34,084 nucleotides of DNA from a virus, in IMG/VR virus record IMGVR_UViG_3300045999_002229, positions 1-34,084 of that record, one strand, 5' to 3'. Positions 29,103-31,190 of the stretch are shown here, piece by piece (the first letter of the stretch is position 1; the number at the start of each line of letters is the position of its first letter). The translations under genes and the position numbers were made by a program. The notes beneath the pieces are model-generated. The model was given only the letters and a program-made list of their open reading frames with translations. It was not told the DNA's origin and did no database searches.

Positions 29103-29139
29103 TGCGGTATCTCCTTTTATTTGCCAAACCCCTTGTAAC

Positions 29140-29148
29140 TAATTCACA
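29140..29148 (+). promoter_or_regulatory. DnaA-box-like 9-mer
   Basis: TAATTCACA differs from the bacterial DnaA-box consensus TTATNCACA at one position. It overlaps the -10/start region of the minus-strand promoter. The phage encodes a DnaA domain IV protein (32774-33067), so regulation at this point is plausible. One near-match of 9 bases can occur by chance. Confidence 0.35.
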
Positions 29149-29173
29149 GGATATTAAAAGCGTTTTTTATTAT
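29143..29173 (+). promoter_or_regulatory. Candidate plus-strand early promoter
   Basis: TTCACA (29143-29148) and TATTAT (29168-29173) are each one base from the sigma-70 consensus, but the spacer is 19 bases, longer than ideal. Transcription would start near 29180, just before the HTH gene at 29194. It overlaps the minus-strand promoter. Confidence 0.4.
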
Positions 29174-29176
29174 CAA
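29148..29176 (-). promoter_or_regulatory. Minus-strand early promoter for the recombination operon
   Basis: On the minus strand TTGATA (29176-29171) and TATCCT (29153-29148) are separated by an ideal 17 bases. The predicted start is near 29141, about 40 bases before the ERF start codon. The spacer contains the second copy of the 14-base repeat. This is the best sigma-70 promoter candidate in the window. Confidence 0.6.
29155..29168. repeat. 14-base repeat TAAAAGCGTTTTTT, copy 2
   Basis: It is identical to 26084-26097. This copy lies exactly between the -35 and -10 boxes of the minus-strand promoter, where a bound protein could block or bend the DNA. It supports a shared operator read by a phage HTH protein. 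Confidence 0.6.
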
Positions 29177-29193
29177 CCGAAAGAAAGTTTAAT

Positions 29194-29400: not shown

Positions 29401-29741
29401 GGCATTTCGGCAAATATCGTGCCGTCAAGTCGCAGTGCAATGCTGGCCACACCCATGACAGCAAACGTGAAGCTATCAGATGCAATGAGCTTCACGATCT
29501 GCAAGCGGCTGGCGCTATCAGTGACCTAATCACACACCCGCAATACTGGTTCGTCATCAACGGCAAACAGCTAAAGCATCCAAACGGCAGGCGCGTTGGC
29601 TATTTATCAGACTTCGAATATATCGAGAATGGTATGGTAGTGACCGAGGATGTGAAGGGAGTCGTTGTTAGGGATTGGCCTTTACGCCGAGCTGTCTTTA
29701 AGGCTCTATTCCCTAATCACGTTTTCCGCGAGACCAAATAA
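29397..29741 (+). CDS. DUF1064-like predicted nuclease (114 aa)
   Basis: The pattern HFGKYRAVKSQC, then HDSKREAIRCNELHDLQAAG with ISDLITHPQYWFV, and later GYLSDFEYIENGMVVTEDVK, matches DUF1064 phage proteins, which have a restriction-endonuclease-like fold. The likely catalytic acidic and Lys residues lie in SDFEY (Asp) and EDVKG (Glu/Asp and Lys). It may act on branched DNA like a resolvase; this is a suggestion from the family, not shown. It follows the HTH gene with a 4-base overlap. Confidence 0.82.
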   Translation: MRHFGKYRAVKSQCNAGHTHDSKREAIRCNELHDLQAAGAISDLITHPQYWFVINGKQLKHPNGRRVGYLSDFEYIENGMVVTEDVKGVVVRDWPLRRAVFKALFPNHVFRETK

Positions 29742-29745
29742 AAAA

Positions 29746-29941
29746 ACGGGCAGTGCGACCGAGAAAGCCCAATCCAAACACTGCCCAGTCCGTTGGTAAG
29801 GAGGCACCAATCCGCGCAAGATACTCTGATAGCGTATTGCTGGTCAATCACTCGCAAAAATTATCTTTTACAAATGCGTGTTTTGAGTTATGTAAGAGCG
29901 AGCGGGGAGTGCTAAGAGAGGAAAGGCACTCGACCCGCTCT
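29746..29941 (+). ncRNA. Intergenic segment rich in inverted repeats (possible leader RNA)
   Basis: This gap of about 230 bases holds no convincing gene. Three inverted repeats lie in it: 29748-29755 with 29779-29786 (8 pairs, 23-base loop), 29816-29824 with 29834-29840 (7 pairs, 2-base bulge), and 29900-29912 with 29926-29940 (13 pairs, 2-base bulge, 13-base loop). The last is strong. It lies 30 bases before a nuclease gene that has a GGAGG site. It could be a terminator/attenuator region, a leader RNA or a small RNA. Also, AGGAGGCAC occurs twice (near 29799 and just before 29971). Expression is not shown. Confidence 0.4.
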
Positions 29942-29970
29942 AACAACGCCTAGTCACAGGAGGCACTGCT

Positions 29971-30537
29971 ATGTCGAGTAATACACGCCACAAAACCATT
30001 ACGCAAGAGTTTGCGTCATGCCCTAAAGTCAACAAAATCATAAACGACTGCATAAATCAGCAGGCTGTTCAGTTGTTAGAAGATTTTGAATATTACGACA
30101 GATTTTGTGAAAGCCCAATTGAGCAACTGCTTCTTGCTGCGTTATACGCTCAATCATTGCAGACAGATTTTTTCCAGATAGAAATGATGGGCACATCAGG
30201 ATTAGCAAAAAATCCAGATCAAGAAACTATTTATGTTCACCAGCAGATGCAGGTAGGCCAGTATCGCGTTGATTTTTTGATTTTTGATTGCTCCTGCCCT
30301 TTTGAAATTGCCGACCCAACAATTATTGTTGTTGAATGTGATGGGCACGATTTTCACGAAAAAACAAAAGAACAAGCTGCACGCGATAAAAAGCGTGATC
30401 GATTTTTTCAGGGTTTGGGTTTTAAAGTTTTGCGCTTTACTGGTAGCGAAATATGGGCAGATGCACACGCTTGCGTTGAGGAAATAATTTTTAATTTAAA
30501 TACGAATAATGATATGCGTCTAGGTCTTGCACAATGA
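29971..30537 (+). CDS. DUF559/Vsr-like predicted endonuclease (188 aa)
   Basis: A PD-(D/E)XK-type nuclease pattern is seen: ESPIEQLLLAAL at 47-58, YRVDFLIF at 98-105 (Asp101), VVECDGHDFH at 120-129 (Glu122) and then KVLRFTGSEIW at about 152-162. This is the typical DUF559 order, related to the very-short-patch repair endonuclease Vsr. A long ARDKKRDRFFQGLG helix separates the last motifs. GGAGG lies 8 bases before ATG 29971. Base use is more AT-rich than the neighbours, which suggests separate acquisition. Possible jobs are host DNA degradation, superinfection exclusion or repair; unknown. Confidence 0.82.
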   Translation: MSSNTRHKTITQEFASCPKVNKIINDCINQQAVQLLEDFEYYDRFCESPIEQLLLAALYAQSLQTDFFQIEMMGTSGLAKNPDQETIYVHQQMQVGQYRVDFLIFDCSCPFEIADPTIIVVECDGHDFHEKTKEQAARDKKRDRFFQGLGFKVLRFTGSEIWADAHACVEEIIFNLNTNNDMRLGLAQ

Positions 30538-31190
30538 GTGTGCGCGTCATGACAGATGTCTGGTCAATTGACCTACCTGATAGCCAAAAGATTGTGCTTC
30601 TTGCTTTGGCGGATTCCGCTAATGATGAAGGGCATTGCTGGCCTTCTATGGCAACGCTGGCAAAGAAATGCAGCAAGGGTGAGCGTACCATTCAAGGCGT
30701 CATAAAGCAGCTTGTTGATGCTGGGCATTTGACACGTAAAGAGGTGCGGGGAAAGGGCTGTAACTATTATGTTCACCCCAGAACAGATTGCGCCCCCGCA
30801 GATACTGCGCCCCCGCAGAGAACTGCAAAGACCCCCGCAGCCGCTGCGGACAAACCATCAATAACCATCATTAAGAAAAATATAAGCGCACATGAGATGC
30901 CAGATGATTGGCAGCCAATGAGTTTTAAGGTTGGTAGCGCAAGCCGCGATATTGTTGATAGTTGGCCTCCAGGAATATACGTTACAACCTTGGAATCGTT
31001 TGTTGCCTACCATCGATCAAGAGGCAATAAGTTCAAAAATTGGCAGGACGCTTGGTCTACTTGGGTTTTAAACAGCAGGAAATTTAAAAATGGCACATCA
31101 AATCGGACAACTGGTCAGCCTAGAAACCAAAACGGCTTTGCCGCAGCACTTCGATACGTCGCGGATGGACGATCTGATGAGCCGTTCTGA
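30534..31190 (+). CDS. HTH replication protein, O/DnaD-like (218 aa)
   Basis: The N-terminal domain (MTDVWSIDLPDSQKIVLLAL, ADSANDEGHCWPSMATLAKK, TIQGVIKQLVDAGHLTRKEV) is the HTH_36 winged helix found in phage replication-origin proteins. A Pro/Ala-rich linker follows (near 85-105). The C-terminal part (ESFVAYHRSRGNKFKNWQDA, then WSTWVLNSRKF) is the DnaT/primosomal-type segment seen in O-like proteins. It likely binds the phage origin and recruits the loader encoded next. ATG 30534 overlaps the nuclease stop by 4 bases. Confidence 0.83.
   Translation: MSVRVMTDVWSIDLPDSQKIVLLALADSANDEGHCWPSMATLAKKCSKGERTIQGVIKQLVDAGHLTRKEVRGKGCNYYVHPRTDCAPADTAPPQRTAKTPAAAADKPSITIIKKNISAHEMPDDWQPMSFKVGSASRDIVDSWPPGIYVTTLESFVAYHRSRGNKFKNWQDAWSTWVLNSRKFKNGTSNRTTGQPRNQNGFAAALRYVADGRSDEPF

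Follow-up and report, generated by a model that had tools for sequence, protein, structure and literature searches.

The 229-base segment between a DUF1064 gene and a DUF559 nuclease gene in an environmental phage is a real and previously undescribed regulatory region, absent from Rfam and from annotated phage records. We think it probable (about 0.6) that this segment is a bidirectional control region heading the replication operon in environmental phages with a P22-type portal. Its two-module anatomy, a minus-strand small-RNA unit (module A) followed by plus-strand promoter-like boxes and a bulged hairpin (module B), is well supported, and we hold it with good confidence. We infer more tentatively, at somewhat less than even odds, that the leftward unit acts in the manner of OOP RNA.

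The segment and its relatives

The window, a stretch of 34,084 nucleotides, is the whole linear 34 kb virus record IMGVR_UViG_3300045999_002229. The portal is of the P22 type and is 67% identical to that of an environmental Manatee Spring phage. The minus strand carries genes for Erf, YqaJ, NinB and SSB; the plus strand carries a small HTH gene, DUF1064, DUF559, an O-like initiator and a DnaA-C domain protein. There is no match to integrase (PF00589) anywhere in the record, which is possibly incomplete. An earlier note drew attention to a non-coding gap with three inverted repeats, the last a 13-pair stem, ahead of an AT-rich nuclease gene, and this description is accurate. The gap extends from the DUF1064 stop at 29741 to an ATG at 29971. 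The first two inverted repeats are GGGCAGTG/CACTGCCC (29748-29755 / 29779-29786) and TTGGT/ACCAA (29793-29797 / 29806-29810). The third is a stem (29900-29940) of 13 Watson-Crick pairs and one U-G pair, interrupted by a 2-nt bulge. The nuclease gene has a GC content of 38.8%, against 49.0% for the window; the gap, at 50.2%, is near the phage value and unlike the nuclease gene. The same note described the genome as having almost no gaps, but the ORF list contains 12 gaps of more than 60 bases, five others being 221-536 bases long.

Relatives were gathered from IMG/VR phages by scans with DUF1064, DUF559 and HTH, which yielded 51 distinct versions of the sequence that follows DUF1064, four of them beginning with an HNH-like ORF. 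More than 40 distinct versions retain the segment, irrespective of the gene that follows, usually a replication initiator. An 18-base piece of the element, used as a fixed query, matches 77 IMG/VR stretches; a pattern of terminator plus 5' hairpin has 47 matches there. The gap sequence has no match among 50,697 annotated phage records, and no Rfam family matches above its gathering threshold anywhere in the window; a lax Rfam search returned only mir-3192 at E 3.5, which is meaningless. Module B is absent from relatives L019 and L116 and module A from L112 and L113, so neither module is indispensable. In L019 and L116, after DUF1064, GGTAAGGAG of module A is the ribosome binding site (RBS) for another short leader ORF, which overlaps its downstream neighbor by ATGA in the way described below. 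This arrangement is possibly an ancestral or a deleted state.

Because the element occurs in dozens of phages without DUF559, its distribution contradicts the proposal that it serves this nuclease in particular, be it as leader, attenuator or partner RNA, and was acquired with it as one unit. The segment does lie directly upstream of the nuclease, which has a low GC content and takes its RBS and leader start from the segment. However, DUF559 is found at this position in the window and L044 only, the gap sequence is nonetheless present in most other relatives, and the GC content of the gap matches the phage and not the nuclease. We therefore regard a DUF559-specific RNA as very improbable. The earlier note had suggested an attenuator, leader or small RNA working with the nuclease, and an acquired cargo unit. 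A regulatory RNA of this kind still fits the data; the link to the nuclease does not, since the segment is kept without DUF559. Likewise, the nuclease looks acquired (low GC, presence in the window and L044 only, fusion to the leader), but the segment does not belong to the cargo. From sequence comparison, DUF559 is a later arrival behind a pre-existing regulatory region and not its partner.

The gap also holds a GTG ORF of 66 amino acids (29753-29953). We rejected it as a conserved protein: it has no family match, and the relatives show many length differences across it.

The predicted leftward small RNA

The whole 229 nt, folded as a single plus-strand RNA, is not unusual relative to shuffled sequences (z -1.1). 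Its parts behave differently by strand: 29742-29814 has a z of -3.0 on the minus strand and -1.3 on the plus strand, and the 3' hairpin has a z of -2.7 (plus) and -3.0 (minus). The hairpin parts are clearly non-random, because they are conserved and show compensatory changes across relatives.

We predict with confidence, from the sequence features, that module A is a leftward small RNA gene of about 70 nt. A consensus scan, together with conservation, points to a minus-strand promoter with a -35 box TTGACC (29842..29847) and a -10 box TATCTT (29818..29823) separated by an 18-nt spacer. Across 40 distinct versions, TTGAC and TAT never vary and lie mostly 17-18 nt apart, and mean pairwise identity is 94.9% for the TTGACC box versus 48.5% for the spacer. 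The predicted RNA spans 29742..29811 on the minus strand, its start estimated at 7 nt past the -10 box and its end set at the T-run; promoter, hairpin and terminator are all conserved, and the minus-strand fold is consistent with this reading. Near its 5' end, folds and alignment indicate a hairpin on the second inverted repeat (29793..29810, minus strand) with CUCCUU, anti-Shine-Dalgarno letters, in the loop.

The reading that best fits the first inverted repeat is that of a minus-strand terminator. On that strand, at 29740..29786, the GGGCAGTG...CACTGCCC stem with a nested inner hairpin is followed by a T-run, which is found on the minus strand only and overlaps the DUF1064 stop codon. Stem and T-run are present in 40 of 40 distinct versions, most relatives having a short form, GGGTGGCTTCGGTCACCC plus T-run, mostly with a TTCG loop. 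Three terminator pairs are changed on both sides among relatives, and minus-strand folds of relatives give z values of -4.0 (L007), -3.6 (L004) and -4.2 (L028).

Two smaller observations concern the variable parts of module A. A single GCGACCGAGAAAGCCCAATCC unit is nested in the terminator hairpin of the window (29764-29779); L011 and L039 have two each, and most relatives none. It has the look of a small palindrome that is either mobile or amplified. The promoter spacer (29818-29842) often contains an inverted repeat, ATACGCT-ATC-AGCGTAT, or GCATTGTACAATGC in L080, that differs among phages, as expected of an operator with changing specificity.

The loop of the 5' hairpin raises the possibility that the RNA acts in trans, with CUCCUU(A) pairing to the RBSs of phage or host genes (for example, those of the leader and erf) and silencing them. 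The loop has the letters of the 3' tail of 16S rRNA; of 43 module A rows, 40 retain CTCCTTA and 42 retain CTCCTT. In the window, its pairing with the leader/DUF559 RBS extends over about 10 positions and ranks second among 46 genes by duplex energy, and in some phages the loop region and the erf RBS are identical over up to 12 nt. However, the loop does not co-vary with the erf RBS, which is near constant while the loop varies; the leader RBS variant GGAAAGG pairs poorly with the loop; and the strongest duplex over the 46 window genes is with a gene unrelated to the region. Moreover, the letters may survive merely as a former plus-strand RBS, as in L019 and L116. Thus, neither co-variation nor duplex energy identified a target, and we consider an anti-Shine-Dalgarno RNA unlikely. 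The more specific idea, that the loop copies the 16S anti-Shine-Dalgarno tail (CUCCUUA) to make a mobile RBS blocker at the replication switch, seems to us slightly less likely still.

Module B, the leader ORF and nuclease fusions

The plus-strand half of the control region includes a weak promoter-like pair, TTTACA-16-TATGTA (29867..29894), made up of conserved blocks around a variable spacer. Identity is 98.3% in the TTTTA block and 80.3% in the TTAT block, and 54.9% in the spacer between them; the consensus promoter scan did not call the pair of the window. A AAAAnnCGCTTTTA-like stretch, seen by eye, is common to module B (29853-29875) and the erf/HTH divergent promoter region (29103-29193), and is most evident in L112 and L113. 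It is a possible site of one regulator for both regions.

Downstream of the boxes is the hairpin at 29900..29940 (GAGCGGG-GAGTGCT ... GGCACTC-GA-CCCGCTC, plus strand), with a purine-rich loop and a 2-nt bulge that is purine-A, on the 3' side, in nearly all relatives. Covariation across relatives, proposed by the earlier note as a check, is present in this hairpin. There are three unrelated lower-stem types (GAGCGGG/CCCGCTC, GGACGGG/CCCGTCC and GGGCTGGA/TCCAGCCC), and Watson-Crick pairs fill 80 of the 84 cells of 7 distinct stem cores. Shuffled stems averaged 57.4 (sd 3.0), and 0 of 2000 had as many; the shuffles ignore relatedness, so this figure is a strong result and not a probability. The remaining four cells are G-U if the minus strand is read and A-C if the plus strand is read. 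These odd cells would pair on the minus strand only and so do not speak for a plus-strand 5' UTR; they hint that a minus-strand RNA, or the DNA itself, is what matters.

The hairpin could be a DNA-level element and not an RNA, either belonging to a replication origin or forming an inverted repeat to which a protein binds. It lies directly ahead of initiator genes, and the hairpin data leave the strand of action undecided. Nevertheless, one element precedes several different initiator types, and the minus-strand promoter and terminator fit an RNA, so we judge a DNA-level element improbable and favor the bidirectional control region. We also rejected the hairpin as an antitermination partner with a second copy: it is single in the window, and there are never two per locus examined. 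The sites put of HK022 and nut of lambda, by comparison, occur once per early operon.

The leader ORF follows. Sequence and alignment place its RBS, AGGAGGC, at 29959..29965 (plus strand); relatives have AGGAGG or variants, including GGAAAGG. The leader codons, MSSNTRHKTITQEFAS (29971..30018, plus strand), form a separate ORF of 15-16 codons in relatives, with the consensus MSNTRHRTIxQ... Of 74 pattern loci, which include some near-duplicates, 66 have a short leader ORF with a -4 (ATGA) overlap with the next gene. Variation affects first, second and third codon positions (18, 23 and 20), with no signal of selection at the level of the peptide. The gene behind the leader is, by N-terminal sequence, one of several initiator types. 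Two of these have no Pfam match, so for them the label of initiator rests on position and on a C-terminus in common with the O-like gene. Translationally coupled short upstream ORFs have their own RBS and a stop that overlaps the next start. The leader is like these in its RBS and ATGA overlap, with coupling predicted, and unlike them in its recurrent in-frame extension by nucleases.

In the window, the extension is the DUF559/MTES_1575 nuclease ORF (29971..30537, plus strand; Pfam PF18741 E 3.4e-13, PF04480 E 1.5e-10), the end of which overlaps by ATGA the start of the O-like replication initiator (30534..31190, plus strand; HTH_36 E 1e-17, phrog_1032 E 7.1e-25). The leader continues in frame into DUF559 in the window and in L044, and HNH nucleases are joined in frame to it in L005 (4558-4977), L129 (8759-9226) and L155 (3898-4365). 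The far-end -4 overlap is kept in the three fusions that were traced (window, L044 and L005). Since both DUF559 and HNH ORFs are fused there, the leader acts like an insertion site that receives endonuclease ORFs. A second insertion point lies between DUF1064 and the module A terminator, where L042 has an HNH ORF (422-868); by reading, similar HNH-type ORFs follow DUF1064 in L089, L109/L110 and L114. Small nuclease ORFs at one spot in related phages are reminiscent of free-standing phage homing endonucleases of the HNH and EDxHD types (PMC3943268), but here the nucleases are joined to a leader ORF of the phage. The DUF559 motif ECDGHD, judged by eye, recalls the EDxHD enzymes, typified by I-Bth0305I; the only PDB sequence match is to 3hrl and is weak (E 0.0048).

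Comparison with OOP and possible roles

In lambda, pO adjoins O, makes oop and lowers transcription from pR, and oop RNA itself is thought to be of little importance for replication (PMC3985674). In common with lambda OOP/pO and the antisense RNAs of P22 and other lambdoid phages, module A would be a short leftward RNA gene beside an initiator (PMC3985674, PMC12197685). Like lambda OOP, it would have its own promoter and intrinsic terminator and would adjoin the upstream gene of a rightward operon, here as predictions. The predicted leftward promoter is just upstream of the initiator gene in the sense that an initiator is downstream in most relatives, and the intrinsic terminator at the end is evident from the sequence. 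In contrast to lambda OOP, which overlaps the coding end of cII, the predicted RNA ends at the DUF1064 stop, overlapping the stop codon region only, and there is no cII. RNase III-dependent decay of the overlapped mRNA is a further property of lambda OOP. It also differs in lacking an Rfam sequence match and in having a rightward promoter-hairpin-leader module next to the small-RNA unit. Thus, the unit is OOP-like by position and signals, yet the lack of cII overlap indicates that it is not a member of the OOP family.

We postulate that the minus-strand unit makes an OOP-like RNA of about 70 nt that would be antisense to any read-through HTH-DUF1064 mRNA. The leftward promoter could also oppose rightward read-through from the HTH promoter, in which case the replication genes would depend mainly on the local rightward promoter, their mRNA most likely starting with a structured leader. 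Given that lambda pO lowers pR activity and that oop RNA seems to carry little weight in replication, promoter interference may outweigh the RNA. The bulged hairpin might protect or regulate the mRNA of the replication genes, and the leader ORF might couple translation to the initiator. The inserted DUF559 ORF would then have taken over the start signals of the leader.

With this segment, a sizeable group of uncultured phages gains a defined early control region. The region stays the same even as different initiators take their place behind it, and it sets a predicted leftward RNA, in the position of OOP, opposite the leader of the replication genes. It also marks a recurrent route by which endonuclease genes settle in a phage, through in-frame fusion to the same 15-codon leader. 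Since the traced fusions keep the ATGA coupling, we predict that the nucleases gain expression without breaking the replication operon.
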